Shown here piece by piece: positions 23,912 to 54,581 of a DNA stretch of 64,000 nucleotides. The stretch is from Novosphingobium sp. ERN07. Its GTDB lineage: Bacteria; Pseudomonadota; Alphaproteobacteria; Sphingomonadales; Sphingomonadaceae. The DNA is taken from assembly GCF_012641335.1 (NCBI RefSeq), contig NZ_JABAID010000004.1, positions 181,111 through 245,110 on the forward strand, read 5' to 3'. The notes under the pieces were generated by a model. The model did no database searches, was not told the DNA's origin, and was given only the letters and a program-made list of their open reading frames with translations. The position numbers and the translations under genes were made by a program. Numbering within the stretch: the stretch's first letter is position 1; each line of letters opens with the position of its first letter.

Positions 23912-23959
23912 CAATCCCTCCCTTTTTGACCTCAGCATTTTAACGGCATCGAATCAAAA

Positions 23960-23977: not shown

Positions 23978-24032
23978 TATTGAAGACCCATTGGCAATAT
24001 GGAAAGGAGCCCATTCGGATTCGCGAGAGGTC

Positions 24033-25190
24033 ATGATGAGTCAGTTTGTATCTTCAGCCATGAAGGCGTCTTTGCCATTCCGGTGTTACACAGAACCAGC
24101 GTTCTTCGAGCGGGAGCGCAGCGCACTCTTTAGCCGGGAATGGGTATGTGTAGCGCGTTGCGAAGACGTACCAGAACCCGGCAACGCTATCGTAGTGCCG
24201 GTCCTTGGAGAGAGCGTGATTGTCGGGCGTCTCGAAGACGGCAGCCTGCGCGCCCACCAGAATATCTGCCGTCACCGCGGATCAAAACTTTGTGGTGATG
24301 ATTCGAAATGGGGGGTTACCCTCAACGGGGGAATTGACCGGGGCTTCATTCGCTGCCCCTATCACCAATGGACCTACGGTTTCGACGGCGCGCTGATCAA
24401 TGCACCTCACCTGACTAAATCGGACGATTTCAATGTGAAAGATTTCAGCCTGATCCCGGTTGGTATCGCAACCTGGGGCGGGTTCATCTTCTTGAAACTG
24501 CGCCCAGAGCTTGGGGAAGAGATACCCAGGGCACTTGGGGTTGCTGATATTGGTCTCGCTCCGAAACGGCTCGCAAATTACCCGCTGGACCGACTACAGA
24601 CCGCGCATACCATCAAATATGAGGTCGCCGCGAACTGGAAGGTCATCGCCGAAAACTACAATGAATGTTATCACTGCAGCGGTGTCCATCCGGAACTTTG
24701 CGAAATCGTGCCGGTATTCCGCAAGAAGGGTGGTCTCGAACTCGACTGGGAAAATGGTGTACCCCATCGCGAAGGAGCCTGGACCTACACGTTCACCGGC
24801 ACGACGTCCCGCAAGCCGTTCGCAGGGCTCGACGAATTCGAGTTGGTTCGGCACAAGGGCGAACTCGTCTATCCGAACATGATGCTCTCAATGAGCGCAG
24901 AACACGGTGCCGCCTTCATCCTCTGGCCTATCTCAGCCGAAAAGACGATTGTCGAATGCCGCTTTCTCTTCGATCCGGAGGAGATTTCCCAACCCAATTT
25001 CAACGGTTCCGACGCGATCGACTTCTGGGACATCACGAACCGCCAGGATTGGGCAGTCTGCGAACGCGTCCAGCAGGGTATGAGCATGGGAGCGCTCGAA
25101 CATGGCTGGTATGCACCAATGGAAGACGACAGCCTCGACATCCGCAAATACCTTGCTGACAGGTTGGGGGCTGGAGCCATAAGTCAGTAG
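24033..25190 (+). CDS. Rieske non-haem iron oxygenase, alpha subunit (quaternary-amine demethylase type)
   Basis: A 385-residue oxygenase. The Rieske cluster ligands are C79-x-H81 and C108-x2-H111 (counting from ATG 24033, which has GAGAGG upstream). The mononuclear iron site is in ENYNECYHCSGVHPEL, H214 and H219, with an Asp in the C-terminal DFWDITNRQDW region. The residue bridging the two metal centres, normally Asp, is Glu211, as in carnitine monooxygenase CntA, and the sequence resembles glycine-betaine demethylase GbcA. Such enzymes hydroxylate an N-methyl group, releasing formaldehyde. It is divergent from a TonB receptor, convergent with tetR, and close to purU. No reductase is adjacent. 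Confidence 0.88.
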   Translation: MMSQFVSSAMKASLPFRCYTEPAFFERERSALFSREWVCVARCEDVPEPGNAIVVPVLGESVIVGRLEDGSLRAHQNICRHRGSKLCGDDSKWGVTLNGGIDRGFIRCPYHQWTYGFDGALINAPHLTKSDDFNVKDFSLIPVGIATWGGFIFLKLRPELGEEIPRALGVADIGLAPKRLANYPLDRLQTAHTIKYEVAANWKVIAENYNECYHCSGVHPELCEIVPVFRKKGGLELDWENGVPHREGAWTYTFTGTTSRKPFAGLDEFELVRHKGELVYPNMMLSMSAEHGAAFILWPISAEKTIVECRFLFDPEEISQPNFNGSDAIDFWDITNRQDWAVCERVQQGMSMGALEHGWYAPMEDDSLDIRKYLADRLGAGAISQ

Positions 25191-25819
25191 AGCAGTACCT
25201 TGTCGTAGAGCGCTCCAAGGCGCTTGCGCTCGGCGCTGCTTTCGCGGATGCCGAGGGTGTAGTAGCCTACCTGATGATAATAGATGATGCGACCGCGGAC
25301 CTCCGCTTCGTCGCCCGTGAAGCCATAAGATTTGAACATCTCCGCAAAGGCAGCAACTCTAATGTCGTCGATGCGGTGCACAGCTTCCGCAACGTCGGGA
25401 TCGGTTCGTGCCCAGTCACGGATTGCCGAATCAAATGCCGGGTCGAATTCGGTTTCGTCGATCCACAAGCGGCCGACAGTCGCATCAAAATCCTCGCGAT
25501 CGCCGCGTGCGCCGGCCGCCTTGATCGCCGCCAGCATTGGTTCGGTGTTACTTGCTTCCCACAAATGCAGCAGTGCATCGAGCAGCGCGTCGCGATCTTC
25601 AAAATGCCAGTAAAAGCTGCCGCGAGTTACGTTCATGCGCTTTGCAAGCAAATCGACTTTTACGCCGTCAATACCGCTTTCGACCAGCATAGTTTTCGCT
25701 GCATTGATCCAGTCTTCGCGACTTAAGCGCGACGAGGTCCGGTTTGAACTGGACGTTGGGGGCTTTGTCCGCCGACGCAATGTACCGGCGCTTCCTTCGC
25801 TGCTCACCGCACCTCCCAC
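25184..25819 (-). CDS. TetR family transcriptional regulator
   Basis: A 211-residue protein with an N-terminal helix-turn-helix (GIDGVKVDLLAKRMNVTRGSFYWHFEDRDALLDALL) and a helical ligand-binding domain, the standard TetR arrangement. The GTG at 25819 opens the frame; GTG 25807, with GGGAGG upstream, is an alternative. The gene overlaps the end of the Rieske gene by seven bases and is divergent from purU across operator site 3. It is the only TetR-type regulator in the window and the natural candidate to bind the five palindromes described here. Confidence 0.9.
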   Translation of the reverse strand: MGGAVSSEGSAGTLRRRTKPPTSSSNRTSSRLSREDWINAAKTMLVESGIDGVKVDLLAKRMNVTRGSFYWHFEDRDALLDALLHLWEASNTEPMLAAIKAAGARGDREDFDATVGRLWIDETEFDPAFDSAIRDWARTDPDVAEAVHRIDDIRVAAFAEMFKSYGFTGDEAEVRGRIIYYHQVGYYTLGIRESSAERKRLGALYDKVLLY

Positions 25820-26043: not shown

Positions 26044-26061
26044 CCATACACTGCTGTATGG
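26044..26061. promoter_or_regulatory. TetR-type operator site 3
   Basis: CCATACACTGCTGTATGG, a perfect 7+7 inverted repeat around CTGC, between divergent tetR and purU. It is 47 bases before the purU start. Its place beside the regulator gene suggests autoregulation. Confidence 0.72.
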
Positions 26062-26107: not shown

Positions 26108-26959
26108 ATGACAAACAAAATGTTCCTTACCATTCGCTGCACTGATCGGCCAGGACTCGTCGCGGCTGTCACAGGCTTTCTTGCCGAATCCAACTTCACA
26201 ATCGTGGAGTCGCACCAGCATCAGGATGCCGACGACTTCTTCATGCGGATCGTATTCAAGCCGGTGTCAGCAGCGATACCCTCGCTGCCTGAGGTTGAAT
26301 CCTCTTTCGCACCCATTGCATCACGGTTCGATATGACAGCGACCTTCACCGATGCCTCAAGGAAGCCAAGAATCCTGCTGATGGTTTCGCGCTTCGGGCA
26401 TTGCCTGCATGATCTGCTCTACCGCTGGCGCGCTGGCCAACTGCCAGTGGAGATCCGAGCTGTTGTTTCGAACCACGAGGACATGCGCTCATTCACCGAG
26501 TGGAACGGCATCCCGTATCATCACCTGCCCGTCACTCCGCAGACCAAGCCAGAGCAGGAACGGGCTCTTCTCAAACTGGTAAAAGAGAATCACATCGATC
26601 TGGTTGTTCTGGCTCGGTACATGCAGATCTTGTCACCAGATCTTTGCGCATTGCTCGCTGGGCGGTGCATCAACATTCATCACAGTTTTCTTCCAAGCTT
26701 CAAAGGTGCCAAGCCCTATCACCAGGCCCATGCCCGGGGTGTGAAGCTCATCGGTGCGACGGCTCACTACGTTACAACCGATCTCGATGAAGGCCCGATC
26801 ATCGAGCAGGACACGCGGCGCGTAAGTCATTCTCGTACCGCCGAGGAACTCACGCTTATTGGTCAGGAAGTCGAGGCATCAGTCCTCTCGCGTGCCGTCC
26901 GCTGGCATGTCGAGCAGCGTGTCATACTGAACGGATCCCGAACGATTGTGTTTGATTGA
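26108..26959 (+). CDS. purU: Formyltetrahydrofolate deformylase
   Basis: A 283-residue enzyme with an N-terminal ACT domain (IRCTDRPGLVAAVTGFLAE) and a formyltransferase-type catalytic domain with VVLARYMQILSP, NIHHSFLPSFKGAKPYHQA and DEGPIIEQD, which holds the catalytic Asp. It splits 10-formyl-THF to formate and THF. PurU beside Rieske N-demethylases and sarcosine-type oxidases recycles folate and disposes of methyl carbon, as in glycine-betaine breakdown in pseudomonads. The operator upstream (site 3) supports such a catabolic role here rather than purine synthesis. The Shine-Dalgarno before ATG 26108 is weak. Confidence 0.92.
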   Translation: MTNKMFLTIRCTDRPGLVAAVTGFLAESNFTIVESHQHQDADDFFMRIVFKPVSAAIPSLPEVESSFAPIASRFDMTATFTDASRKPRILLMVSRFGHCLHDLLYRWRAGQLPVEIRAVVSNHEDMRSFTEWNGIPYHHLPVTPQTKPEQERALLKLVKENHIDLVVLARYMQILSPDLCALLAGRCINIHHSFLPSFKGAKPYHQAHARGVKLIGATAHYVTTDLDEGPIIEQDTRRVSHSRTAEELTLIGQEVEASVLSRAVRWHVEQRVILNGSRTIVFD

Positions 26960-32287: not shown

Positions 32288-32773
32288 TTATTGCCGCTTA
32301 TGAGTTAGATCCTGCCAACATGGTGCGCCGCGATATGACCGGGGTATTAAAATGGTCACCAAGCCCCTCTGACAAAACGCCATGACATCGACTTGACCGA
32401 TCTGCATTGGCCGCGCTTCATCCCCCCGCAGCAACACAGCAGAATGCGTCGCCAGCTGCACGCTATCGACATTGTGAACAGCAACAAAGCTGTCGGATAC
32501 ATCGGTGATGATTGCGGGTGCCCCGGCAAGCTGCGCCCTCATCCCAGAAACACGACCGGCCATTTCAGATGCAGAGCCCAGCAGTAACCAGTCGCACCGA
32601 CTGGCGCGCAGCCCTAGACAGGTGGACGTGTCGCCATGCAACTCGCCGAAATCAGGCAACCGGATGTTGAAGCAGCACTCTAACGGGCTTTTCAACTCTG
32701 GATGGCGAGCCAGATCAACCGACAAACGAATAATTGAGAGATCAAATGTCAAGGCGACCTCCCTCGCGGTCAT
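32288..32773 (-). CDS. soxG: Sarcosine oxidase gamma-like subunit
   Basis: A 161-residue protein from ATG 32773, overlapping the end of soxA by 32 bases. TTG 32752 has the better ribosome site (GGGAGG) and may be the true start. Weak family sequence includes LGLRASRCDWLLLGS, DVSDSFVAVHNV and the C-terminal CQRGLVTILIPRSYRG. Its place directly after soxA is what identifies it: the gamma subunit completes the heterotetramer and helps assembly. Without the operon it would be hard to name. Confidence 0.75.
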   Translation of the reverse strand: MTAREVALTFDLSIIRLSVDLARHPELKSPLECCFNIRLPDFGELHGDTSTCLGLRASRCDWLLLGSASEMAGRVSGMRAQLAGAPAIITDVSDSFVAVHNVDSVQLATHSAVLLRGDEARPMQIGQVDVMAFCQRGLVTILIPRSYRGAPCWQDLTHKRQ

Positions 32774-35441
32774 AGGCGACCGTCTCTGAAATCCTGGCCT
32801 GCCAACTCCTCCCCAGCGAGACGATCTCGACGATTTCACCAAGGCGCCGCTGCCCCTGCTCGACCAATCCCAAGGCAACGCCCCGTCCCAGCACGGGGCT
32901 GAACTGGCTGCTCGTAACGAATCCTCCGCTCTGCCCACTGGGAGCCCGCACATGACCACCTACCGGCAATATCCCGCCGCAAAGCGAGGTCAGGCCCACC
33001 AGTTGCTTACGATATGGCGATAAGGATGAGCGACGCGTCAGCGCTCGCCGCCCAAGGAAATCGCTCTGCTTTTTGGCGATGGCTCCGCCAAAACCGATAT
33101 CACCGGGCTGGGTCTCGCTGTCGGTATCAGTTCCAACATGAATGTAGCCCTTTTCGATACGCAAGATTTCGAGTGCCTCTATCCCATAGGGCACCAATCC
33201 ATAGGGCTTGCCAGCCGCCATCAGCGCATCGCCCATCTGCACCGCCTGCCCCGCTGGCACCTGGATCTCGTAGCTCAACTCACCAGAAAAGCTCACGCGC
33301 TGAATACGTACTTCCGATCCGTCGAGTTGTCCCTCTCGGACGGACAAGTGTGGAAAACGCTCACTTGAGAGATCAAAACTGGGCTGCAATGCCTCGAGCA
33401 CATTTCGTGCGTTCGGGCCCGCAACAGTCCAGACAGCATATTGCTCAGTCACGTCTTGAACGACAACATCCATCGGCCATTCGCATTGAAGCAGATCCTC
33501 CAGCAGGCGGACCATCCGGTCAGCGAAGGCACTGGACGGGCTGAGCAGGAAACTCCCGTCTTGGAGACGAGCATAGACCCCGTCATCCAGGATCGTACCG
33601 TTCTCGTTGAGGACAAGCCCGTACCGGATCCGCCCGGGCTTGAGCGTCGAGGGGGTGCCAACATAGACCCGGTCGAGGAACGCTGCAGCTTCGGGGCCGG
33701 CCACGAGAATTTTGCCAAGCGGCGAACCGTCGAGAAGACCAACGCCACTTCGGACCGCTGCGGCTTCACGCTCAGCTGCCGCCTGGATGTCTTCCCCGCC
33801 AACCGGATATGCCGCCGGCCTTTCCCATCCAATATCCTCGAACACAGCACCTTCGCGTACATGCCATTCGTGTGCGGGCAGATACCGACGAGGTCGGAAG
33901 CGTTCACCGCGTAGATCAGCACCGATCAGACCAAAGGCTGTAGGAACGAAGGGCGGACGAACCTTGCTTGCGGACAGCGTTCCGGGTTCCGCGCCGATGG
34001 TCTCCGCGAGGATCATGGCGCCGGGGACCGAGCTCAGCTTTCCCTGGTCGACGCCCATTCCCAACACAGTGTAGCGCTTGAGATGCTCAACGCTTCGATA
34101 GTTTTCGCGGGCCGCCAGCTTGATGTCTGCCACGGTCACATCGGTCTGAAAATCGACGAACATGGTCTTTTCATCCCCGCCGTGGACAGTCCAGATGGGC
34201 TCCGCCTCAATCGGTTCGGGGCCTGCCCATTCGACATTGGCGACCAACCCATCCGGCTGGAAACTCTGGCTGCGCTCGTTGAACTTCGTCTGACCGCCAG
34301 CCATGGTCCACAGTTGGGAAGCAGGGTTCCAGCCTCCCGAGACCCCGACAAAGTCGCACGCGAGACGACTCAGGCCATCCGGCTTCTCTATGGTGACGCC
34401 GGTGACGCGTCCGCGCCCATGGGCCGACCGGACTAATGACGAAAAGAATAGATCGATTCCGTGCGCACGGGCGCGATCGGCAAGTTCGGGCAGCACCTGC
34501 GGCCTTGCATCGACAATGGCGCGCACCCCTACACCACACTGCGCAGCTTCAATAGCGGACCGCCAGCCCAGATCGTTGTTGACGAAGAAAATGCCGGATC
34601 GACCCGGCGCCACCGCATAATCCGCGACATATCTGCCGATCGCACCGGCGAGCATGATGCCGGGCAAGTCGTTGTTCGCAAATGCGATGCCGCGCTCTTG
34701 CTTGCCCGTCGCGAGAATGATCTGCTCGGCCCGGATGCGGTGGAGTACCCGACCTTCCGATGCGGCCAGCACAAAACCATGATCCCAGACTCCAAGAGCT
34801 GCAGTCTTTTCAAAGGTCCGAACACCTTCAAGGCTTGGAAGACCCTGATCCAGATCGACAAGCAATACCGATTTGCCGTCTCGCGCTGCCTGTGCCGCAG
34901 CGGCCAACCCCCTTCTGCCTCCACCTATCACTAGCAGATCACATTCCACATGACGCGCTTCGTAGCGCTGCGGATCGGGCACGACCGGCACCTTGCCAAG
35001 TCCGGCGGCGCGCCGAATCAGCCATTCGAACCAGTGCCAGTCCGGCCACATGAATGTCTTGTAGTAGAATCCGGCAGAGAACAGTCCGCGGAGACGATCA
35101 TTCACGCCAGCAATGTCCCAGGTCAGTGAAGGCCAGGCATTGATGCTCTGGGCAACCAGCCCTTCCTCCAGAGCGATCATGGTGGCCTGCACGTTGGGAA
35201 TGGAGGATAGGCCGTGCTCAAGTTGAACCAGTGCGTTGGTTTCCTCGCAGCCGACTCCCATAATACCGCGTGGTCGATGGAGCTTGAAGCTCCGTCCGAC
35301 AAGCTGCACGCCGTTGGCGAGCAAGGCCGACGCCAGTGTATCGCCCGCAAGGCCTGCATAGCGCTTGCCATTGAACGAAAAGTCGATGGACTGGCCGCGA
35401 TCGATCCTGCCGCCGCCATGGGAAAGTCGGTAACCGGTCAC
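32742..35441 (-). CDS. soxA: Sarcosine oxidase alpha-like subunit
   Basis: An 899-residue subunit, somewhat shorter than the typical 1000. The N-terminal domain has the FAD/NAD-binding LLVIGGGRRGLAAAAQAA, and ATGKQERGIAFANNDLPGIML; the C-terminal half is a GcvT-like folate-binding domain (GVGLLDGSPLGKILVAG, FSGELSYEIQVPAG, GYIHVGTDTD). In the tetramer the alpha subunit binds NAD and transfers the methylene group to THF. GTG 35441 overlaps soxD (GTGA). The Rossmann loop reads GGGRRG where GAGPAG is usual, a small deviation. The substrate may be sarcosine or another N-methyl amine. Confidence 0.9.
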   Translation of the reverse strand: MTGYRLSHGGGRIDRGQSIDFSFNGKRYAGLAGDTLASALLANGVQLVGRSFKLHRPRGIMGVGCEETNALVQLEHGLSSIPNVQATMIALEEGLVAQSINAWPSLTWDIAGVNDRLRGLFSAGFYYKTFMWPDWHWFEWLIRRAAGLGKVPVVPDPQRYEARHVECDLLVIGGGRRGLAAAAQAARDGKSVLLVDLDQGLPSLEGVRTFEKTAALGVWDHGFVLAASEGRVLHRIRAEQIILATGKQERGIAFANNDLPGIMLAGAIGRYVADYAVAPGRSGIFFVNNDLGWRSAIEAAQCGVGVRAIVDARPQVLPELADRARAHGIDLFFSSLVRSAHGRGRVTGVTIEKPDGLSRLACDFVGVSGGWNPASQLWTMAGGQTKFNERSQSFQPDGLVANVEWAGPEPIEAEPIWTVHGGDEKTMFVDFQTDVTVADIKLAARENYRSVEHLKRYTVLGMGVDQGKLSSVPGAMILAETIGAEPGTLSASKVRPPFVPTAFGLIGADLRGERFRPRRYLPAHEWHVREGAVFEDIGWERPAAYPVGGEDIQAAAEREAAAVRSGVGLLDGSPLGKILVAGPEAAAFLDRVYVGTPSTLKPGRIRYGLVLNENGTILDDGVYARLQDGSFLLSPSSAFADRMVRLLEDLLQCEWPMDVVVQDVTEQYAVWTVAGPNARNVLEALQPSFDLSSERFPHLSVREGQLDGSEVRIQRVSFSGELSYEIQVPAGQAVQMGDALMAAGKPYGLVPYGIEALEILRIEKGYIHVGTDTDSETQPGDIGFGGAIAKKQSDFLGRRALTRRSSLSPYRKQLVGLTSLCGGILPVGGHVRAPSGQSGGFVTSSQFSPVLGRGVALGLVEQGQRRLGEIVEIVSLGRSWQARISETVAYDREGGRLDI

Positions 35442-35701
35442 GGCCGCGCAACTCCCATTACGTAAACCGCTACGACCTCGTGTGTTTCAGTATGCCGGAT
35501 CAGATTGAACCAGACCCCGCAACCGTGCACATGGACCCATCGCTCGGCATGCTCGCCCTTGGGGTTGGCGCGCAGGAAGAGATACTCCTCCCAAGCCTGG
35601 TCGTCGCAGTCCAGCTCTGGTCGGTCGATATGGGCTTCGCCGCCATAGGCAAATTCGCGCTCGTCGCGCAGGCCACAGTTCGGGCAGGCAATCCGCATCA
35701 T
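35438..35701 (-). CDS. soxD: Sarcosine oxidase delta-like subunit
   Basis: An 87-residue protein with the zinc-binding pattern of the delta subunit: CPNCGLRDEREFAYGGEAH at the N-terminus, and HVHGCGVWFNLIRHT near the end. It begins at ATG 35701 (a second ATG follows), one base after the soxB stop, and overlaps soxA. The small zinc subunit stabilises the complex. Confidence 0.9.
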   Translation of the reverse strand: MMRIACPNCGLRDEREFAYGGEAHIDRPELDCDDQAWEEYLFLRANPKGEHAERWVHVHGCGVWFNLIRHTETHEVVAVYVMGVARP

Positions 35702-35702
35702 G

Positions 35703-36956
35703 TCAGTGTTCAATCCCGGCTGCCGCAGCTTCGTCGATGAGCGCGCCATCCCTGAAACGCTGGAGTCCGAAGGCGGTGGTTAGCGGATGGGGCTCATCCT
35801 TCGCGATCAAGTGCGCAAAAGCCTCACCGCCGGCCGGGATCGCCTTGAACCCGCCTCCGCCCCAGCCGACGTTCAGATAAATCCCCGGTACCGGACTGCG
35901 GTCAATGATCGGCGAGCTATCGGCCGTGTAGTCGACGATTCCAGCCCATTGGCGCAGGAGGCGCAGACTACTGAAGGTCGGAACAAGCTGGACGATGCCG
36001 GCAAGCACTTTTTCCATTGTCGCTGCGCTTCCGCGCTGGGCAAAGGACGGATAGGGATCGATGCCGCCACCGCACACAATGCCGCCCTTGTCCGACTGGC
36101 TGCAATAGCTTCCGATCACGGCTGAACCGATCACGGTGTGCAAGACGGGCTTGACCGGTTCGGAGACAAAGGCTTGGAGCCCATAGCTGGCGACAGGCAA
36201 TCGGAAACCGGCCATCTGCGCGACCACTGACGAATGACCGGCCGTGGCGATCCCCACCTTGGTCGCACCAATGAAGCCTTTACTTGTTTCGACGCCCTGC
36301 ACACCGCCGCTGATGTCCCGGCGGAACCCGGTGACTTCGGTATTCTGAAGGATGTCGACACCCAGGGCATCGGCTGCCCGTGCATAGCCCCAGGCTACCG
36401 CGTCATGCCGGACAGTCCCTCCTCGTTTCTGGCGCATGGCCCCGTAAATGGGAAACCTTGCATTAGGATCGCCATTCAGGACAGGACAGAATTTGAGCAC
36501 TTCCTCCCGTCCGAGCAGTTCGGCATCGATCCCGTTCAACTGCATCGCGTTCACAATTCGGCGCTGAAAATCGACCTCGTGCCGGCTGTGCGCGAGATTA
36601 AGGATTCCGCGGGCGGAATACATGATGTTGAAATTGAGCTCCTGCGAAAGGCTGGCATAGAGACGGAGCGAATGGTCGTAGAAGTCGGCACTTTCCTTGT
36701 AGAAATAGTCCGAGCGCACGATGGTCGTGTTGCGGCCGGTGTTACCGCCGCCGAGCCACCCCTTATCAATCACAGCAATGCGTCCAGGCCTGTAGTGCTT
36801 GGCCAGATGGTAGGCGGTCGCAAGGCCGTGGCCGCCAGCTCCGATGATAATCACATCGTAGCTGCTCGCCGGTTCGGGGGAGCGCCAAACCGGATCCCAA
36901 TCCGTATTGCCACCAAGCCAGTTCCTGAGAAGCGCGAACGCCGAATATCGGCTCAT
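35703..36956 (-). CDS. soxB: Sarcosine oxidase beta-like subunit
   Basis: A 417-residue DAO-family flavoprotein from ATG 36956, which overlaps the upstream stop (ATGA). It has VIIIGAGGHGLATAYHLAK for FAD, GGNTGRNTTIVRSDYFY, LNLAHSRHE (the region where the His that binds FMN covalently lies in the family), and the C-terminal YLNVGWGGGGFKAIPAGG. The beta subunit oxidises the N-methyl amine to its imine with electrons going to FMN and oxygen. Methylene carbon goes to THF, and PurU would later release it as formate. Confidence 0.92.
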   Translation of the reverse strand: MSRYSAFALLRNWLGGNTDWDPVWRSPEPASSYDVIIIGAGGHGLATAYHLAKHYRPGRIAVIDKGWLGGGNTGRNTTIVRSDYFYKESADFYDHSLRLYASLSQELNFNIMYSARGILNLAHSRHEVDFQRRIVNAMQLNGIDAELLGREEVLKFCPVLNGDPNARFPIYGAMRQKRGGTVRHDAVAWGYARAADALGVDILQNTEVTGFRRDISGGVQGVETSKGFIGATKVGIATAGHSSVVAQMAGFRLPVASYGLQAFVSEPVKPVLHTVIGSAVIGSYCSQSDKGGIVCGGGIDPYPSFAQRGSAATMEKVLAGIVQLVPTFSSLRLLRQWAGIVDYTADSSPIIDRSPVPGIYLNVGWGGGGFKAIPAGGEAFAHLIAKDEPHPLTTAFGLQRFRDGALIDEAAAAGIEH

Positions 36957-38545
36957 CGGCGCAAATCCTTCAGAATGACTTGTGCTGAATTCCGGCCAGG
37001 AGCTCCCGTCACGCCCCCACCGGGGTGCGTGCCCGCGCCGCACAGATACAAACCGGCCACAGGCGTGCGGTAGCCCGACCAATCGGGGTGCGGGCGCATG
37101 AAGAACAACTGGGCGAGATTGAGATCCCCGTGGAAGATGTTGCCTTCGGTCAGTCCGTAGGTGCGCTCCAAATCCAGCGGTGTGATGACTTTACGTGCGA
37201 CGATGCTGCCAGGGACGTTGGGCGCGACCCGGCCAATCTGTTGCACCACCTGATCGCCGAGCGCTTCACGTCGCGAGTCCCAGTCCCCCTCTCGCAGCCG
37301 AAAAGGAACATACTGGACAAAGCAAGTGAGCATGGTGCGGTCCGACGGGCAGAGCGTGGGATCGACCAAACTTGGAACCACGCAATCGACCCACAGCTCG
37401 TCTGCCACTTCGCCGAACTTTGAGGCATCATAGCAGCGCTGCATAGCCTCCATGCTGCCCATGACCGAAAAGACCGCGCGTTCCGCCGGAGTGGCGTCGA
37501 GCGACATGCCCCTGATCGAAGGTGGCTCGCTCAGGACCATGTTCACCTTGGCCGAAGGACCGGCCATTTTGATGGCGGCGATGTCCGATCGAAATGTCGG
37601 GTCGAGATGTTCCGCGTCGACCAACCCAAGGAACGTTCGCTTTGGGTCCGCATTCGACACGACCGCCTTGGCGTGAAACACTCGGCCATCGACCAGCTCG
37701 ACGCCGGATGCCCGCCCGCCCTTTACGTAGATCCGCGCAACCTCTGCATTCGTGATGATTTCGGCGCCAAAGCCCCGGGCAGCGTTGGCCAGCGCATCGC
37801 TGACTGATCCCATCCCCCCGATAACATGGCCGCTGAAGCCCTGGATGCTATTATCACCACCGCCCAACAGGTGGAACAACAAGCCTAGGGTCGAGCCCGG
37901 ATCATATGGCCCCCCATGCTTGCCGTAAACGTTGTTGGCCAGAAAGAGCCGGTGCGTCTCCTCGCTTTCGAAGTGTCGCTCGAGAAATTCGGCGAGGGAG
38001 CCGGTCAGAAACCGCGTCATCGATGCAATTTCATCTCGCGAGATTCCCCAGAATTGGCGGGCCATTGATGCCAATTCCCCGAGCCGGTCGACCAAGCTCC
38101 CGCTCAGAGCCGGCGGAGGCTTGAGAAAGAACGGCTGCAGGTAGCGAGCGAGCGCCTTGAGTTGATGCTCGACCGCTACGAAGTTGTCGGCATCCTTCCG
38201 ACTGTAGGTCCGAAGGCTTGCCGCAGTCCGCAACGGATCGGACCAAAGCGTCACGAGGCCCTCATCGGATGTCGGCACATTAAGCGCCGGGTCGCATGCG
38301 ACCATTTTCAGCCCATGATCAGCGAGCCCCAGTTCCTTGACCACGGCGGGGGTAAGCATGCTGGCGATATACGAGCAAAATGACACACGGCACCCCGGCA
38401 TCACTTCCTCGGTCACGGCAGCCCCGCCCACAATTTGGCGACGCTCGAGGACCAGAACTCTTGCACCCGAACGGGCAAGATATGCGGCCGCAGTCAGACC
38501 GTTGTGACCACCGCCTACCACAATTGCATCGAAAAAATCGGTCAC
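36953..38545 (-). CDS. Phytoene-dehydrogenase-like FAD oxidoreductase (PYROXD2-like)
   Basis: A 530-residue flavoprotein. It begins with FDAIVVGGGHNGLTAAAYLARSGARVLVLERR and GGAAVTEEVMPGCRVSF and ends with LYLCGAGTHPGGGVTGAPGRNSAQVI, the FAD-binding ends of the carotenoid-desaturase/amine-oxidase superfamily. The frame is open to ATG 38590, but that ATG lies inside TetR-type site 4, so GTG 38545 is the more credible start. It heads an operon with soxBDAG whose genes all overlap. It may oxidise an amine or a carbon-carbon bond in the same pathway; the reaction is unknown. Confidence 0.85.
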   Translation of the reverse strand: MTDFFDAIVVGGGHNGLTAAAYLARSGARVLVLERRQIVGGAAVTEEVMPGCRVSFCSYIASMLTPAVVKELGLADHGLKMVACDPALNVPTSDEGLVTLWSDPLRTAASLRTYSRKDADNFVAVEHQLKALARYLQPFFLKPPPALSGSLVDRLGELASMARQFWGISRDEIASMTRFLTGSLAEFLERHFESEETHRLFLANNVYGKHGGPYDPGSTLGLLFHLLGGGDNSIQGFSGHVIGGMGSVSDALANAARGFGAEIITNAEVARIYVKGGRASGVELVDGRVFHAKAVVSNADPKRTFLGLVDAEHLDPTFRSDIAAIKMAGPSAKVNMVLSEPPSIRGMSLDATPAERAVFSVMGSMEAMQRCYDASKFGEVADELWVDCVVPSLVDPTLCPSDRTMLTCFVQYVPFRLREGDWDSRREALGDQVVQQIGRVAPNVPGSIVARKVITPLDLERTYGLTEGNIFHGDLNLAQLFFMRPHPDWSGYRTPVAGLYLCGAGTHPGGGVTGAPGRNSAQVILKDLRR

Positions 38546-38586
38546 GTGACTCGCCTGCCCTCTGGACTCTTGAAACAACCTCTCTA

Positions 38587-38604
38587 CCATACACTAGTGT
38601 TTGG
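38587..38604. promoter_or_regulatory. TetR-type operator site 4
   Basis: CCATACACTAGTGTTTGG, one mismatch in a 7+7 inverted repeat. It sits between the sox operon and the divergent MFS gene. It differs at one of 18 positions from the reverse complement of site 5 at 54264. Confidence 0.62.
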
Positions 38605-45226: not shown

Positions 45227-46665
45227 CTAATTTCCGATCAGTGTGCCCGGCGACGGGAGAAACAGTTTGGGAAGGAAGGTCGGCGGGCCCGAAGGAAGTC
45301 GCTCTGGCCGTCGAACGTGCGAGGCGATCCTTCGATGGCTGGTCCGCTACGCCACTTTTCGAGCGAATTCGGCTCGTCGAGCGATACCGGCAGATGATAT
45401 CGGATCACGCAGAACGGCTCGCTGCGGCAATCGGCCGTGAGACCGGAAAGCCTTTGTGGGAAGGCCGCCAAGAAGTCGCATCCATGGCCAACAAGGTCGC
45501 GATTTCGATCCAGTCCCAAAGCGAGCGCGCTGGCGAGTCCGAGCGGGAGGCCGCATTCGGCCGGTCGGTGCTGCGCCACAGGCCGTATGGTGTAATGGCC
45601 GTCTACGGCCCATACAACTTTCCTGGCCATCTTCCCAACGGGCACTTCGTTCCGGCGCTCCTTGCGGGAAACACAATCGTCTTCAAGCCGTCGGAGGAAG
45701 CGCCCCTCGTTGGCGAAATCATTGATGGTCTGTTGCAAGAGGCTGGCCTGCCGGATGGTGTTTTCAACATTGTGCAGGGCGGGCGCGACACCGGCATCGC
45801 CCTCGCCGAATCCCGGATCGATGGCCTACTCTTTACTGGTTCGGCCGCTACCGGCGCACACCTTCGGCGCCAGTTCGTTGATCGTCCAGAAGTCATTCTT
45901 GCGCTCGAGCTCGGCGGCAACAATCCCCTGATCGCTTGGGACGGGATGCCGGACGCGGCAGCCTCAATCGTCGTGAGCTCCGCTTTCATCTCGGCCGGGC
46001 AACGCTGCTCGTGTGCGCGTCGCCTCATTATCCCGAAGGGTAGCGTCGGTGACGCAACGCTTGCAGCTGTCGTCGACTACGCGCAGCGTTTGTCGATCGG
46101 CAGCTGGGACGAAGCTCCGGAGCCAGCAATGGGACCGCTGGTATCCGCTCACGCTGCCGATCGCGTGCGCGCCGCCTATGATGCGCTGGTGGCATCCGGG
46201 GCGCGCGTGGTTTTGCCCTTGCTATCCCCGCCGGATCGTTCGGGTGCATTTCTGACTCCCGCAATCGTCGACGTAACGGACATGGAAGTCCCTGACCGGG
46301 AAATCTTCGGCCCACTTCTCCAGGTCATGCGAGTGCCTGACTTCGACACCGCTATCCGCGTCGCCAACAATACCGCCTTCGGACTGGCGGGGGGGCTGAT
46401 CTCTTCAGATCAATCCTTGTGGGATTGCTATGCGCTTCGCGCACGCGTCGGTGTGTGCAACTGGAACAGGCCCACGACCGGCGCCGCCGCGACGATGCCG
46501 TTCGGCGGGCTGGGTGCCTCGGGCAATCACCGGCCAAGCGCCTTTTACGCGGCTGATTATTGCGCCTATCCGGTCGCCAGCTTCGAAGCAGAAGCAGTGA
46601 TCGACCAAACCAGCGACATTCGCGGCCTGCGATCAGCCCGAAGGGATCATTCCAATGGTGCGTGA
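45223..46665 (+). CDS. astD: N-succinylglutamate 5-semialdehyde dehydrogenase
   Basis: A 480-residue aldehyde dehydrogenase. The catalytic Cys is in SAGQRCSCARR and the general-base Glu in LELGGNNPL. GVMAVYGPYNFPGHLPNGHF and the close of the protein, CNWNRPTTGAAATMPFGGLGASGNHRPS, are typical of AstD. It oxidises succinylglutamate semialdehyde with NAD to succinylglutamate, the fourth step of the arginine succinyltransferase pathway. It overlaps astC and astB. Confidence 0.93.
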   Translation: MTNFRSVCPATGETVWEGRSAGPKEVALAVERARRSFDGWSATPLFERIRLVERYRQMISDHAERLAAAIGRETGKPLWEGRQEVASMANKVAISIQSQSERAGESEREAAFGRSVLRHRPYGVMAVYGPYNFPGHLPNGHFVPALLAGNTIVFKPSEEAPLVGEIIDGLLQEAGLPDGVFNIVQGGRDTGIALAESRIDGLLFTGSAATGAHLRRQFVDRPEVILALELGGNNPLIAWDGMPDAAASIVVSSAFISAGQRCSCARRLIIPKGSVGDATLAAVVDYAQRLSIGSWDEAPEPAMGPLVSAHAADRVRAAYDALVASGARVVLPLLSPPDRSGAFLTPAIVDVTDMEVPDREIFGPLLQVMRVPDFDTAIRVANNTAFGLAGGLISSDQSLWDCYALRARVGVCNWNRPTTGAAATMPFGGLGASGNHRPSAFYAADYCAYPVASFEAEAVIDQTSDIRGLRSARRDHSNGA

Positions 46666-47944
46666 AGTCAATTTTGACGGTCTGGTCGGCCCGAGCCACA
46701 ATTATGCGGGCCTCTCGTTCGGAAATGTCGCCTCTGCGCGGAATGCCGGCGTGGTCTCAAGCCCTCGAAAAGCGGCCATCCAGGGGATTGGCAAGATGCG
46801 GCGAATGCTCGGGCTTGGCCTAACACAAGGCCTGCTGCTGCCGCATGACCGCCCTTTCGCTCCGTGGCTACGAGATCTTGGTTTCGCAGGCAGCGACGAT
46901 GACGTCTACTCCGCCGCCTGGGCAAGCGATCCGGCATTGCTGACGAGTGTGTTCTCCGCATCCCCGATGTGGACCGCTAATGCAGCGACCGTCTCGCCCG
47001 CCCCCGACACGCGCGACGGGCGTTGCCACCTGACAGTCGCAAACCTTTCGTCGATGCTCCATCGCAGCATCGAGGCACAACAGACTGTGCGACAACTTCG
47101 GCTGGCATTTCCCGATAAGCGTCTGTTCGCCGTGCATGACCCGCTCCCCGCAAGACTAACAGACGAAGGAGCCGCCAATGCAATGCGGCTAACAGCCAGT
47201 CATGGCGAACACGGCCTCGAGATCTTCGTTTACGGTGTTTCAAGCGGCAGGTACCCCGCCCGGCAGAATCGGATCGCGGGGGAAGCCGTGGCTCGGCGCC
47301 ATGGCCTGAGCGCCGAGGGGCAACTCCACGTCCAACAAAGTGCTGCGGCGATAGAAGCCGGTGCCTTCCACAATGACGTGGTGGCGGTCGCGAACGAGAA
47401 TGTCTTGTTGACACACCAACAGGCCTTCGAGGATCGCGACCAAGTCCTCGAAACCATCCGCATGCGAGTACCTTCGGTCCAGATTATCGAGGCGCCTTCG
47501 GATCGAGTATCACTTGCAGATGCGGTGGGTTCCTATCTGTTCAACTCGCAACTGGTCACACTGCCTTGCGGCGGAATGGCCCTGGTCGTACCGGGCGAAT
47601 GCCGAGAGAACTCTGCTGTGTGGAAATGGTTGAACGATAGCGTGGTGGGCCAAGGCGTCATCACACGATTGGAAATCGTCGAGGTTCGCGAATCCATGCG
47701 TAATGGAGGAGGCCCTGCTTGTTTGCGCCTACGGGTTGCCATGAGCGAGGGCGCGCTGGCAGCCGTCGACAAGAGGTTCCTCGTTGACGAAAGGATCTGT
47801 GACAGGCTCGAGAGAACCATAGAAGAACATTGGCCGGAGAGAATTGCCGAGTCCGACCTGGCGGACGCCGAACTCTGGGCAGAATGCCGTGCTGCACGCG
47901 GAGCACTGATGAAAATGCTCGGCTTTGGAATTGGGGAACTCTGA
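46655..47944 (+). CDS. astB: N-succinylarginine dihydrolase
   Basis: A 429-residue amidinotransferase-fold enzyme. It opens [22 protein letters not shown], with [12 protein letters not shown] and [14 protein letters not shown]-type sequence ([15 protein letters not shown]) containing catalytic residues, and [15 protein letters not shown] near the end. It hydrolyses succinylarginine to succinylornithine, CO2 and two ammonia. The start overlaps astD by 11 bases. Confidence 0.94.
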   Translation: [429 protein letters not shown]

Positions 47945-47945
47945 T

Positions 47946-48875
47946 ATGACGCACCAAGTGCGCATGGCATGCAAGAATGACGTGGATGCATTGCTGGAAC
48001 TGGCGGCATTGACCGCGGGCGGCCTCACCAACTTTCCTCATGACCGGGGTGTACTGGCGGAACGAGTAGCGTGGAGCGAGCAATCCTGCGGCGTCATTAT
48101 CGATTCACCGCAGGATGAATTCTATCTGTTCGTCCTTGAAGACACTGAGACGGGCCGAATTGTTGGAACCTCGAGCATTTACTCGAAGATCGGGGTCCGA
48201 TGGCCATTCTACAGCTACAAGCTGAGCCGAATATCCCATGTTTCCAATGGCACTGGCCGACATTTCTCGACTCATATTCTAACACTGGTCAATGATTTCG
48301 ATGGCGCTTCGGAAGTGGGCGGGCTCTTTTTGGCGCCACAAGCCCGATCCGCGGGGCTGGGACAACTTCTCTCGCGCAGCCGCTACCTCTTTATTTCTCA
48401 ACACAGGGAGAGGTTTGGAAGCACTATAGTTGCTGAAATGCGCGGCTGGCTAGATGGCGCCATCTCACCATTCTGGGAGGCCGTTGGCCGAAAATTCTTT
48501 GACAGCGAATTTCATGCTGCCGACCTATACAATGCGACCCAAGGCAATCAGTTCATTGCCGATCTCATGCCTAAATTTCCCATATATACTGCGCTCTTGC
48601 CACTCGATGCGCAGTCTGCGATCGGGCGCCCCCACGTAGACGCAGTTCCGGCCAAGGCAATGCTTGAAGCCGAAGGATTTGTTTACGACGGCTATGTCGA
48701 CATCTTCGATGCAGGTCCCACGCTTCATGCCCGCATTGACCAGTTGCGTACGATTACCGAATGCCGCCTCGTAGGCGACGGCCTGGAATTACCGCTACCT
48801 GGCCGCAATCAGCGCCTGCGTGCCAGAAATTCTGGTCTGGAATTCACGGTAAGCCTCGAAGCGCTGGAATCGTAG
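47946..48875 (+). CDS. astA: Arginine N-succinyltransferase
   Basis: A 309-residue GNAT-type enzyme. It has GGLTNFPHDRGVLAERVAWSE, the PSxTxLP-like zone SVSDMG replaced by local sequence, SKIGVRWPFYSYKLSRISHVS, FLAPQARSAGLGQLLSRSRYLF and AEMRGWLDGAISPFWEAVGRKFF, all typical of AstA. It moves succinyl from succinyl-CoA to arginine, the first step. ATG 47946 lies two bases after the astB stop with GGGG upstream. It is somewhat shorter than the usual 340, and is the last gene before an IS110 transposase. Confidence 0.93.
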   Translation: MTHQVRMACKNDVDALLELAALTAGGLTNFPHDRGVLAERVAWSEQSCGVIIDSPQDEFYLFVLEDTETGRIVGTSSIYSKIGVRWPFYSYKLSRISHVSNGTGRHFSTHILTLVNDFDGASEVGGLFLAPQARSAGLGQLLSRSRYLFISQHRERFGSTIVAEMRGWLDGAISPFWEAVGRKFFDSEFHAADLYNATQGNQFIADLMPKFPIYTALLPLDAQSAIGRPHVDAVPAKAMLEAEGFVYDGYVDIFDAGPTLHARIDQLRTITECRLVGDGLELPLPGRNQRLRARNSGLEFTVSLEALES

Positions 48876-49077: not shown

Positions 49078-50085
49078 ATGAAGCACTATGCCGGATTGGA
49101 CTTGTCGATGGAATCCACGCAGGTCTGCATCGTTGATGACAATGGTCGGAAGGTCGTGTCGGAGAAAGTGGAAAGCTCTCCGGAGGCGATCGCCATGATG
49201 CTGGAGCGATACGGTCCAATCGAGCGGGCGGTGATCGAAACGGGCCGCATGTCGCCGGCGATCTGCCTTGGCCTGCGTGAACTGGGTGTCCCGGTAGTGT
49301 GCATTGATGCCCGCCAGGCCCACCAGAGCCTCAAGGCAATGAAGGCGAACAAGACCGACCCTCACGATGCCGCCGGCCTCGCACAGTTGGCACGCACCGG
49401 CTTCTACAAGGAGGTGCATGTCAAATCTCCGGCAGCGCATGGCGTTCGCAGCGTCATCACCGCACGCAGCCATCTGGTTGAAGCGCGTGTCCGGCTCGAC
49501 AACACGATCCGTGGTCTCTGCGCGACGTTCGGCTATCGGCCCGGCGCAGGTCAAGGGAAGGCCTTCCTCGAACGGATCATGCAGGCCGCCCACATCCCGG
49601 GCCTTGGCGACGCCATCGCATCCTTGCTGTCTGTGCGCGCAGAACTGGTCGGGCAAATCAAGGAAATGGACCGCCGCCTGCGTATCATCGCCAGCCAGTC
49701 ACAGGCTTGCGAAATCCTGATGACCATACCGGGCGTGGGCGTGCAGACATCTGCTGCCTTCGCCGCTGCAGTGGATGAAGCGGGGCGTTTCCGACAATCG
49801 CGCAATGCCGGCGCCTACTTCGGCCTTGTGCCCCGACGTCATCAGTCGGGCGAGCTAGATCGGACAGGCAGGATCACCAAACAGGGAGATGGGACCGTGC
49901 GCAAGCTGCTGTACGAAGCTGCCAACTCGATCCTCACCCGAAGCCGGGAAACCTTCGCGCTCAAGTCATGGGCCATGAAGATCGCCAAGCGTCACGGCCT
50001 AAAGAAGGCTCGCGTTGCCCTTGCCCGCCGCCTCGCTGTCATAATGCATGCCATGCTGCGCGACGGCACTTTGTTCCAAGCGTAA
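49078..50085 (+). CDS. IS110 family transposase
   Basis: A 335-residue DEDD transposase of the IS110 type. The N-terminal DEDD domain has YAGLDLSMESTQVCIVDD, IETGRMSPAICLGLR and NKTDPHDAAGLAQLAR. The C-terminal domain has ILMTIPGVGVQTSAAFAAAV, the Ser of the second catalytic part, and AYFGLVPRRHQSGELDRTGRITKQG. IS110 elements act with a bridge RNA from their non-coding ends, so the non-coding DNA just before 49078 or after 50085 probably belongs to the element. It sits directly after the ast operon. Confidence 0.93.
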   Translation: MKHYAGLDLSMESTQVCIVDDNGRKVVSEKVESSPEAIAMMLERYGPIERAVIETGRMSPAICLGLRELGVPVVCIDARQAHQSLKAMKANKTDPHDAAGLAQLARTGFYKEVHVKSPAAHGVRSVITARSHLVEARVRLDNTIRGLCATFGYRPGAGQGKAFLERIMQAAHIPGLGDAIASLLSVRAELVGQIKEMDRRLRIIASQSQACEILMTIPGVGVQTSAAFAAAVDEAGRFRQSRNAGAYFGLVPRRHQSGELDRTGRITKQGDGTVRKLLYEAANSILTRSRETFALKSWAMKIAKRHGLKKARVALARRLAVIMHAMLRDGTLFQA

Positions 50086-50365: not shown

Positions 50366-51652
50366 TGGACACCCTGATTTACCCGCTCACGGTGCTGGGC
50401 ATAACCTGAAGGTGCGAGGCCGACCGTTTCGGGTTTCCATATCCGGGCATTTTCCGGTCACCGCGTAGGCGTTACGGGCCGTTTCGGGACCTTGGCCGCG
50501 TGATCATGCGGTGCTCGCCCGGTTTTCCCAGTAGAGGAAGCGTTTGAAGTTGAACGCGATGTTGGCGAGGCCGATCTTCACCTTGGCCCGCTCAATGCCG
50601 ATCGTGCGGATGAACAGGCCCATGCGGTGCTTCTGTGTGGCAAAGACGTGCTCGACAGCAGAGCGCACTTTGGATCGGGCGGCATTGGCGCGTTGGCGCT
50701 GCGTGGGAAGCGGCTTTCCTGGTGCGCGGCGGAAGTGGATTTTCGATACCAGCCCCGCGCGCAGGATAGCCCGCTCGTTCTTTTGGCTGCGATAGGCGGT
50801 ATCCGCCCAGATCGCGCTGCCGGTGTTGGCCGGATCGATCAGGTTCGGCAGTTCGCGGCCATCGTAGCGGGCGGCATCACTGGCGCCCCACGTGCGGATG
50901 AAGCCGTGCCGCTGGTCGATGCCGATGTGGGATTTGTAGCCGAACATGGGCGTGGCTATCTCGGCCATGAGTTTGCCATCTGGGCCTTTCTTGCGGCGCC
51001 CGCGCTTGAGCGTCCAGCGCGCGTCGCGATCCTTCTGCGCGAGCTTTGCCGGCTTGGCGGCCCAGTCTTCCGGAATGCCGCCGCCCTTGACCAGGGCGCG
51101 CTCCTCGTCGGTCATGCGCTGACGCGGAGCGGCGATGATGCTGGCATCGACGATCTGCCCGCCCATGGCCAGATAGCCCAGACCTCTGAGGTGGGCGTCG
51201 AAGCGGGCAAACAAGGCGTCGATGGCATTAGCGCGCACCAAGCCCTCGCGGAACCGCCAGATCGTCGTCTCGTCGGGCGTGTTGTCGCCATCGTTGAGGC
51301 CGAGGAAGCGCCCGAAGCTGCGCCGGTCGAGGATCTGGAACTCGGCTTGCGCATCAGACAGGCCGTAGAGCGTCTGCAGGATCAGCGTCTTGAACATCAT
51401 CACCGCGTCCAGCGGCGGCCGCCCGCCCTTGCTGCCGTCAGATCGTTGCAGGGCCGCATCCAGCGCGGGGCGAAATATCTCAAAGTCGATCAGCGCCACG
51501 AGTTTCTCCAGCGGATCGCCCGCCGCCGACAGCGCCGCATACCGCTCATCCAGATCGAAAAAGCCACGCTGCACAGACACATACGCCTCCATCGCTCAAA
51601 ACGATGGAATCACATTCACACCCTCACCGCCACCAGTAAATCAGGGTGTCCA
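50366..51652. mobile_element. IS5-family insertion sequence, complete
   Basis: Perfect 17-bp terminal inverted repeats, TGGACACCCTGATTTAC at 50366-50382 and its reverse complement at 51636-51652, bound a 1287-base element with one transposase gene. No clear target-site duplication is seen beside the repeats. Confidence 0.88.
50504..51592 (-). CDS. IS5 family transposase
   Basis: A 362-residue DDE transposase with the IS5-type N-terminal region (FDLDERYAALSAAGDPLEKL, GGRPPLDAVMMFKTLILQTLYGLSD). The DDE residues are in GQIVDASIIAAPRQR, SAIWADTAYRSQ and RSAVEHVFATQKHR. The gene lies inside the inverted repeats and seems intact. Confidence 0.93.
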   Translation of the reverse strand: MEAYVSVQRGFFDLDERYAALSAAGDPLEKLVALIDFEIFRPALDAALQRSDGSKGGRPPLDAVMMFKTLILQTLYGLSDAQAEFQILDRRSFGRFLGLNDGDNTPDETTIWRFREGLVRANAIDALFARFDAHLRGLGYLAMGGQIVDASIIAAPRQRMTDEERALVKGGGIPEDWAAKPAKLAQKDRDARWTLKRGRRKKGPDGKLMAEIATPMFGYKSHIGIDQRHGFIRTWGASDAARYDGRELPNLIDPANTGSAIWADTAYRSQKNERAILRAGLVSKIHFRRAPGKPLPTQRQRANAARSKVRSAVEHVFATQKHRMGLFIRTIGIERAKVKIGLANIAFNFKRFLYWENRASTA

Positions 51653-51752: not shown

Positions 51753-51785
51753 CAGAATGCGATGAGTCAGGCTCATCGCATTCTG
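51753..51785 (-). terminator. Strong hairpin after the linalool-dehydratase-like pair
   Basis: CAGAATGCGATGAG and CTCATCGCATTCTG form a perfect 14-pair stem around TCAGG, three bases after the stop codon of the downstream gene of the pair. CTTAAG rather than a T run follows, so factor-independent termination is likely but not certain. Confidence 0.6.
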
Positions 51786-51788
51786 GTA

Positions 51789-52931
51789 TCAGCGGACCAC
51801 ATTATAGTCTTTGTGGTAGCTCTGCGCCCAATCTTTTTCAACAAGCTGCTTCCAGCCGACATGGCACTGGGCCAGAAGGTTAAAGTATGAAACCAATGGT
51901 CCACCCTCCCCCAGCTGATCATAAAATATCTTAGCCTCTATACGCTTCGGCTCTAAAACTTCATAAATGCGATTGTTCAGTAAATTGAAAAATTTGACAT
52001 CTTGCATCTCTTTAGCCAACCAAAGAGCTGAAAAAATATCCTCTAGTTGAAAACCAAGAGGTGTTACGAAAGACTGTCCAGACTTCCCTTTCAACGCCCC
52101 TAAATCGATCCGCATCAATTCGTCAGAAAATGCGAACTTAAACTGCTCCCAAAGCGCCTCAGCTTCCTGCGGCCTGAAATAATGCATCAGGTTAAGTGCC
52201 AACGCATTGGATCTTGGTCGAATATTTCTAGAGATCCAAAATGACTCTCTATTCATTTCCTGCTTGTCGAAACCAAAACTTCCAGTTTGCAGTGATTCGA
52301 AGAACAGTCCTGATTTATCATCGCGTAACAGAACGCCTATACCGTCCAGAATTTTGTCATTATCGTCGGAATAAGTTGTCCCATGAATCTTATCATGAAT
52401 TTCAAATGCAAGCATCGCCAGTAGATTTGGAAACATTTCGAACCTACCGGTCACAGTTTCAAGCGCGAAAATATTTTGCGCAGATTGGTAATTGTTAATG
52501 ATCTTTCCTTTTATTTCTTCGATGAATGCGCGAGATTTTTCATCGAATTGCCCCCTTCCGCTGACCAATCGGTAGAATTCATACGACAGGGCGCTCAGGA
52601 CGACGCGGACATTTTCAGAATCGTACATATTCAATGGGTTGGAAAGATTTGGATTACAGATATTTTTTGCGGTCAGGTTAAGATTATACTCAACCTCTCT
52701 GGTTCTGAACGGGTCAATATAGGCTACAGATGGCAAAGTCAGGGCCATGAAGCCCATGGCCTTGTAAAAAGCGACCCCCGAACCAGGAACGTGACAGACG
52801 TGGCAATTATTGTAGCAAGCCAGGTCCAGGTCGAACAGAAGCGTCCTGTAATGCGCCTCAACTTGATCTGTGAACCGCCCGTCTTCAACCATCGCCCAGA
52901 TGTCTTGGCGCGAAGCCTCTGCACCGATCAT
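51789..52931 (-). CDS. Linalool dehydratase/isomerase-like protein, catalytic residues absent
   Basis: A 380-residue protein that overlaps the upstream gene (ATGA, 52928-52931). It follows that gene's helical-barrel pattern: NPLNMYDSENVRVVLSALSYEFYRLVSGRGQFD lines up with the NIMYK segment there, and AFEIHDKIHGTTYSDD with its SIHDLIFGTNY. The active-site His and both Cys of the partner are replaced (ALSYEF for AHLHVM; FALETVTGRFEMFP for IVCEDDQYFPVC). It may be a structural or regulatory partner subunit. CHVCHVPG near residue 45 is Cys/His rich. Codon and base use are AT-richer than in neighbours. The fold assignment is inferred through the partner. Confidence 0.68.
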   Translation of the reverse strand: MIGAEASRQDIWAMVEDGRFTDQVEAHYRTLLFDLDLACYNNCHVCHVPGSGVAFYKAMGFMALTLPSVAYIDPFRTREVEYNLNLTAKNICNPNLSNPLNMYDSENVRVVLSALSYEFYRLVSGRGQFDEKSRAFIEEIKGKIINNYQSAQNIFALETVTGRFEMFPNLLAMLAFEIHDKIHGTTYSDDNDKILDGIGVLLRDDKSGLFFESLQTGSFGFDKQEMNRESFWISRNIRPRSNALALNLMHYFRPQEAEALWEQFKFAFSDELMRIDLGALKGKSGQSFVTPLGFQLEDIFSALWLAKEMQDVKFFNLLNNRIYEVLEPKRIEAKIFYDQLGEGGPLVSYFNLLAQCHVGWKQLVEKDWAQSYHKDYNVVR

Positions 52932-54079
52932 GACAACACCGCCCGATGCCGGGCCCTCAGCGCGCTCCAATCATGCTGAAAGACCGCGTTCCAGGATTCG
53001 TGAAGGGCGCCCCATAGGATGTAGCTGTTGGCGTGATGCTCTTCCCCATTTGTCACTTCGACGAGGCGGACCCTTCCGTCGACATACGCAATACCAGACG
53101 TCTTACCCAGGTACTTCATAAAACCAGCCCAAAGGTCAGGGTCCTGATACTCCCTCGCCAAGCCGAGCGCATATAGAAGCCCGAAACTCTCCTCCAGCCC
53201 CATGGCGGGATCGGAGGCATGGACACATTCCTTGAGGTAGAGCGCGCCATCCGGTTGCTGCGCAACGAGCAGACGCTTGAAGTTCTCATAGCCGGTCTGC
53301 ATGTCTGCCGGATTGGTATAATGCAATTGGGTCAGTCCCCAGGTGTTGCAAGCGCCGGACAGATAGGCTTCAGCCTGGTCATGGGAGGGATGATACTTGT
53401 ACAGTATCATCTTGGTCACTGGATCACTGATCCTGTCTGCAATGAAATCAGCAACTCTTTTTCCATATTCATTGTAGTAATTCGTTCCAAAAATTAAGTC
53501 ATGTATCGACATTCCGATGACTATCTGGGAATTACATACAGGAAAATATTGATCATCTTCACAAACTATACCTTCAAATCCCTCATTTTCGCTATTTTCA
53601 TTCAACTCCTTTTTCATTATATCTGTTAGCTGAATGTACTCCCTCTCAAACTCCTGCGATCCGGTAATGAGCTGATACAAGCCGTACATGACGTGCAGAT
53701 GCGCCTTGTACATGATATTCCGGCAGCATATCGGATCTGGCCCATGGCCGTACTTGACCCATTCGTCCCAGATCGGCGTATCTTTGAACAGTAGTATTGA
53801 TTTCCTCAGACAGATTGAAGCTTCCGCGTACCGGGCTTCCTCAACCATGATCACCGAGGGGATCGAGTATGTCGCGAATGCCAGCGGGTATTTCCACCAC
53901 CCATGCATGTTGCGGTCCCACGGAAATGCGGCATTGTCCCAACCACCCTCGAACGTGGCATCGATCCGGTCCCGGTGGAAGTTCCAGATCATCTCGGCGA
54001 AATGGCTGAGTTTTCCAGCCCGCTTTTGCAAAAAGATATCCGCAGCAATGCTGTCGAAATCTGTGATTTTCTCAGCCAT
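52928..54079 (-). CDS. Linalool dehydratase/isomerase family protein
   Basis: A 383-residue protein. The stretch from WDEW through NIMYKAHLHVMYGLYQLITGS to GIVCEDDQYFPVCNS and SIHDLIFGTNY matches LinD (Ldi) of Castellaniella defragrans as I recall it. The active-site residues H127, C173 and C182 are all present, and the Cys are nine apart as in LinD. LinD removes water from linalool to myrcene, and isomerises geraniol. No signal peptide is seen here, whereas LinD is exported. The true substrate is unknown; a related tertiary or allylic alcohol is possible. The DNA is AT-richer than average and an IS5 element lies beyond the partner gene, suggesting transfer. Operator site 5 is about 190 bases upstream. 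Confidence 0.8.
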   Translation of the reverse strand: MAEKITDFDSIAADIFLQKRAGKLSHFAEMIWNFHRDRIDATFEGGWDNAAFPWDRNMHGWWKYPLAFATYSIPSVIMVEEARYAEASICLRKSILLFKDTPIWDEWVKYGHGPDPICCRNIMYKAHLHVMYGLYQLITGSQEFEREYIQLTDIMKKELNENSENEGFEGIVCEDDQYFPVCNSQIVIGMSIHDLIFGTNYYNEYGKRVADFIADRISDPVTKMILYKYHPSHDQAEAYLSGACNTWGLTQLHYTNPADMQTGYENFKRLLVAQQPDGALYLKECVHASDPAMGLEESFGLLYALGLAREYQDPDLWAGFMKYLGKTSGIAYVDGRVRLVEVTNGEEHHANSYILWGALHESWNAVFQHDWSALRARHRAVLS

Positions 54080-54581
54080 ATTAAATCACCAATCCAATAA
54101 GTTGGGAGGACTTGCAGGGACAACGAAAACCGTCCTCGACTGCGAATCCATGGAATGGAACAACATTGTGAAAAGGCCGACTATGACCACGCTGCTGTCG
54201 ATCACCGAAGCGCTGGTTTGGGTCGCCACCTCAACAGCGCGTCCTTTCCGCCAACCAACCTTTCCAAACACTGGTGTATGGTAGCACCATGGCACAAAGA
54301 GTCCAGTAGGATCAGGATGCCTTCTTGCACTTTGGCATATCAGGATCAGGCGCAGACTGGTCATTCAGACCTACTTTGAAGAACGGCAATGATGCTCGAA
54401 ACATTCCGCTTGAGGATTGCTGCCGCCTCTCAATACTGCTCACGTTCCGGCGACATCGAGCCTTGCCCGCTTTGCCCCGAGAACGGCACAGCTGCTCGGG
54501 TGAGAAGTCGGATCTATGGTCTTGTGGATCAAACGCGCAACCGTTCGATACCGTGTCGTTGCTCGAGCGAAAATGCCAAGC
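54080..54581. other. Intergenic region before the linalool-dehydratase-like pair
   Basis: About 500 bases that hold TetR-type site 5 and presumably the promoter of the pair. Frames here match no family I recognise. Confidence 0.45.
54264..54281. promoter_or_regulatory. TetR-type operator site 5
   Basis: CCAAACACTGGTGTATGG, one mismatch in a 7+7 inverted repeat and one base from the reverse complement of site 4. It is about 185 bases before the linalool-dehydratase-like gene, further than the other sites are from their genes. Confidence 0.6.

Follow-up and report, generated by a model that had tools for sequence, protein, structure and literature searches.

Gene pair in Novosphingobium sp. 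ERN07 with a LinD-family protein and a same-fold partner lacking the catalytic set, likely forming a two-part enzyme

The stretch of DNA analysed here (the window; 64,000 nt of Novosphingobium sp. ERN07, contig NZ_JABAID010000004.1, positions 181,111 to 245,110 of the forward strand) carries two overlapping genes, denoted A and B, whose products share the fold and family of the linalool dehydratase of Castellaniella defragrans (LinD, also Ldi; PF18566). The pair and its junctions are laid out as follows:

52928..54079, minus strand: gene A, 383 amino acids (aa), LinD-family protein with the catalytic set
51789..52931, minus strand: gene B, 380 aa, LinD-fold partner without the catalytic Cys/His/Met set
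52928..52931, minus strand: ATGA overlap of the A stop and the B start
51753..51785, minus strand: hairpin with a 14-bp perfect stem, 3 bases past the B stop, without a T-run

According to close homologues B starts at the ATG at 52931, in place of the TTG at 52970 of the initial open reading frame (ORF) listing, and it is due to this start that the A stop and the B start share the ATGA, through which the two genes may be translationally coupled. The A/B junction of the Emergencia locus (L005) has a TGATG overlap, whereas in L004 and L006 the two genes are separated by 9 and 18 bases. The hairpin past the B stop has a computed folding energy of -26.2 kcal/mol (z -5.0), and terminator prediction made no call there.

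Against PF18566 (Ldi), A scored 85.9 bits with a cut-off of 26.1, and the same profile search returned no Ldi match of its own for B; in a profile search of the PDB, B matched LinD at 9.3e-18, and three of the 13 proteins listed alongside the B family test carry PF18566. Structures were predicted for single chains: A modelled alone gave a high-confidence LinD-like structure, an (alpha,alpha)6-barrel close to LinD was obtained, and A and B have a common predicted fold. Profile and predicted structure thus agree on a LinD match for both proteins, as a preliminary description of this locus had proposed. Among same-family genomes, 13 of 298 encode another, longer Ldi-type protein (L032-L044, L046-L049; open frames of 503-943 aa), which as a rule outscores gene A against Pfam Ldi.

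Residues were counted, in LinD numbering, in an alignment of 82 sequences, i.e. 39 labelled A, 16 B and 27 single-gene relatives. M123, H127, C173 and C182 of window A correspond to M125, H129, C171 and C180 of LinD, and these four together with K127 are retained in 38-39 of the 39 A sequences and in all 27 single-gene proteins (Saprospiraceae, Myxococcota, Dehalococcoidia and others; L007-L031). In B, position 171 is Thr in 16/16, position 180 is Pro in 12/16 and Thr in 4/16, position 125 is V, I or L, and His129 persists in 3/16. Since the C171, C180, H129 and M125 set of LinD is missing from it, B is, judged by sequence, a family-fold partner classed apart from linalool dehydratases. It has a signature of its own, with Y46, T171 and G174 each in 16/16 and Arg126 in 15/16; D42 is also found in all 16 B, but most A proteins have it as well, and N181 and D192 occur throughout the family. 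In the tree, B stands separate from both A and the single-gene proteins, and the trees of A and B mirror each other. As read from these columns, the pocket of B is remodelled and constrained, not decayed. Hence the two-gene observation of the preliminary description, a catalytic member next to a non-catalytic one, holds, but its term ‘degenerate’ for the partner does not.

B lies adjacent to A in all six examined loci having A, and the A-then-B order is conserved across distant phyla with differing flanking genes. The second protein, which might have occurred alone as often as with the first, was never seen without A in loci or genomes where both could be looked for. Single-gene loci differ from the pair in this respect: no second family ORF was present in any of the 25 (L007-L031), four of which lie on contigs of 3-5 kb. 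The A-B pair is real, ancient and constrained.

We take D39, Y45 and the C49-C102 cap to be LinD residues contributed by the neighbouring subunit, and the hope that B supplies them was only partly borne out. Among the 27 single-gene sequences these residues are confined to 4-6, which make up the narrow LinD group. A lacks Y45 and both cap cysteines and has D39 in 8/39; B has, in register, Y45 in 6/16 and D39 in 1/16. No Cys stands at the aligned cap columns in any A or B row, just as 23 of the 27 single-gene rows lack the cap cysteines. Separately, the A-type proteins P0012-P0027, including that of Emergencia (L005:7902-9143), carry at their start a tail rich in cysteine, with 3-7 Cys within the first 35 residues, runs of 2-5 Cys and, in many, CNCAGQEI-like motifs; window A and P0002-P0011 do not have this tail.

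Signal peptides were judged by eye from protein starts, and no signal-like start was seen in window A or its nearest relatives (P0002-P0011). At the Coriobacteriales locus a twin-arginine (Tat) signal precedes A, and the start of B does not resemble a signal; because the Tat system exports folded proteins, B could travel out with A. The four single-gene-type proteins viewed (P0035-P0038) have signal- or anchor-like starts. LinD itself is, in the available portion of PMC6600392, a single-gene, exported homopentamer capped by the Cys48-Cys101 disulfide (C49/C102 in our numbering); window A differs from it in having neither the cap cysteines nor a signal peptide, and in being paired with B.

Because the two genes stand side by side in every examined locus with A, we consider that A and B likely assemble in the cytosol into a single hetero-oligomer; A would perform the chemistry and B would be the facing subunit. 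Linalool dehydratase-isomerase in the strict sense interconverts linalool, geraniol and myrcene. As A has the LinD catalytic set, its reaction may be that of a cofactor-free alcohol dehydratase (or hydratase/isomerase) that uses cysteines for acid/base chemistry, and the role of B would be to complete and shape the pocket. The accessible parts of PMC6600392 and PMC6013536 place the LinD active site between two subunits and propose a dimer as the smallest active unit. A second face of such an interface would be the simplest reading of a non-catalytic paralogue that was found with A wherever both could be looked for. A and B cannot alternate in the five-membered ring of LinD, therefore their assembly should differ from it: the A-B enzyme would be expected to be dimeric, to form a ring with an even number of subunits, or to consist of an A ring carrying stacked B. 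We infer that A and B are in contact, that A alone has reduced or no activity, and that alcohol and alkene are interconverted.

Such a two-part build appears undescribed for the LinD family. Lis of Thauera linaloolentis, in 2018 the sole known enzyme similar in sequence to LDI (20% identity; PMC6013536, available portion), is by description a membrane-bound single-gene product, which sets it apart from A-B. TlxIJ offers a precedent by analogy: in this homologous pair one member is catalytically incompetent yet required for binding the substrate (PMC12141560, available portion), although its proteins are unrelated non-haem iron oxygenases of talaromyolide biosynthesis and not LinD-family members.

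Alternatively, A and B might be separate homo-oligomeric enzymes acting on successive pathway intermediates, with the remodelled site of B performing different chemistry. The conserved positions of B's own (T171, G174, Arg126) lie in the segments that hold the catalytic residues of LinD and are not obviously needed by a purely structural subunit, which speaks for this reading; however, constant adjacency across phyla with differing flanks, gene overlap at the start of B in two lineages and, in Coriobacteriales, a Tat signal present on A but not on B all fit one unit better, and we regard separate enzymes as unlikely. We consider it quite improbable that A works by itself as a LinD-like homopentamer and that B serves as its chaperone, stabiliser or regulator. 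Self-sufficiency would agree with the full set of known catalytic residues in A and with its confident model as a lone chain, and a need for help could be argued from exported LinD, which, when retained in the cytosol of E. coli, took on a different assembly and was left almost without activity, with a slight rest in whole cells (PMC6600392, available portion), given that A shows no signal peptide. But as an assembly factor a full-length paralogue whose pocket loops are conserved would be out of the ordinary, and all 25 single-gene loci manage without B, though P0035-P0038 may be exported or anchored by their starts. Finally, B as a decaying duplicate carried with A near insertion sequences, to which its low guanine-cytosine content (44.6%), lost catalytic residues, IS5 and IS110 neighbours and few recent silent changes would point, is refuted as far as decay goes and is very improbable overall.

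The two insertion sequences lie downstream of A-B:

50504..51592, minus strand: IS5-family transposase, later insertion, outside the system
49078..50085, plus strand: IS110-family transposase, later insertion, outside the system

Insertion sequences are not present wherever the pair is, which rejects the pair as their cargo, and the IS5 adjacency mentioned in the preliminary description is incidental.

An operator type shared by the region upstream of A and demethylation-type genes, as the preliminary description had noticed, recurs in three copies in the window:

54264..54281, no strand: operator copy 1, 18-bp palindrome, CCAAACACTGGTGTATGG, upstream of A
38587..38604, no strand: operator copy 2, before the sarcosine-oxidase-type operon and a divergent major facilitator superfamily gene
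26044..26061, no strand: operator copy 3, 1 mismatch, between tetR and purU
25184..25819, minus strand: TetR-family regulator, putative candidate for the operator
26108..26959, plus strand: purU, formyltetrahydrofolate deformylase (TIGR00655, 331 bits, cut-off 286)
32288..37082, minus strand: soxBDAG-like operon, heterotetrameric sarcosine-oxidase family
32742-35441, minus strand: SoxA-like (985 bits, under the cut-off of 1164)
35703-37082, minus strand: SoxB-like (638 bits, over the cut-off of 529)
32288-32959, minus strand: SoxG-like frame, by position, size and our reading only
35438-35749, minus strand: SoxD-like, by position, size and our reading only
36953..38590, minus strand: flavin adenine dinucleotide (FAD)-dependent oxidoreductase, CrtO/CrtI-like, heading the sox-type operon

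To our knowledge a CrtO/CrtI-like FAD oxidoreductase is unusual in a sarcosine-oxidase-type operon; translation of this gene probably begins downstream of the operator. The operator-linked genes match the composition of the soxBDAG-purU sarcosine oxidase operon, a partner in the presumed regulon that is distinct from the A-B pair. In this bacterium the pair would be induced together with the N-demethylation genes via a TetR-type repressor, and from this presumed co-regulation we guess that the pair perhaps acts on a product formed when an N-methylated compound is broken down. A fuller version of the two-part reading, to which we give somewhat less than an even chance, would be an obligate heteromeric LinD with active sites only at A-B contacts and the five-fold homomeric ring abandoned, a cytosolic, disulfide-free hydro-lyase branch of an age that lets sphingomonads, gut Clostridia and Coriobacteriales have it in common, and which in sphingomonads would belong to a three-site N-demethylation regulon.

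A Rieske oxygenase (window 23901-25190, plus strand) has carnitine monooxygenase as its best PDB match (5.5e-38) and scores far under the glycine-betaine monooxygenase cut-off; it is possibly a new quaternary-amine demethylase. Upstream of A-B lies a gentisate-type set (gentisate 1,2-dioxygenase-like, maleylacetoacetate/maleylpyruvate isomerase, FAA hydrolase and 3-hydroxybenzoate 6-hydroxylase-like genes). About 90 kb from A-B there is an mlrC-mlrA-mlrD-mlrB-like microcystin-degradation cluster (L054:1368-5264; L052, on its own contig C34), its gene names assigned tentatively by position, size and profiles; MlrA is 100% identical in Novosphingobium MD-1. The pair as part of this pathway was rejected, a constant mlr association not being found. 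One contig holds two arginine-succinyltransferase (ast) gene sets (window 44015-48875 and L053:173-3892, the latter by eye), and a D-amino-acid dehydrogenase is found at L055:7230-8501; these would fit use of microcystin amino acids.

LinD is valued for producing or hydrating simple alkenes with no cofactor required; against this stand its sensitivity to oxygen, its dependence on export and on a disulfide, and an active site shared by identical subunits (available portions of PMC6600392 and PMC6013536). If the two-part reading is true, a cytosolic branch exists with the roles split over two proteins, so that each side of the pocket could be changed separately, and the pair would offer a direct test of an interface active site split by duplication. 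The three-site operator set points to genes relevant for finding the substrate, and the Emergencia timonensis member extends the question to the human gut.
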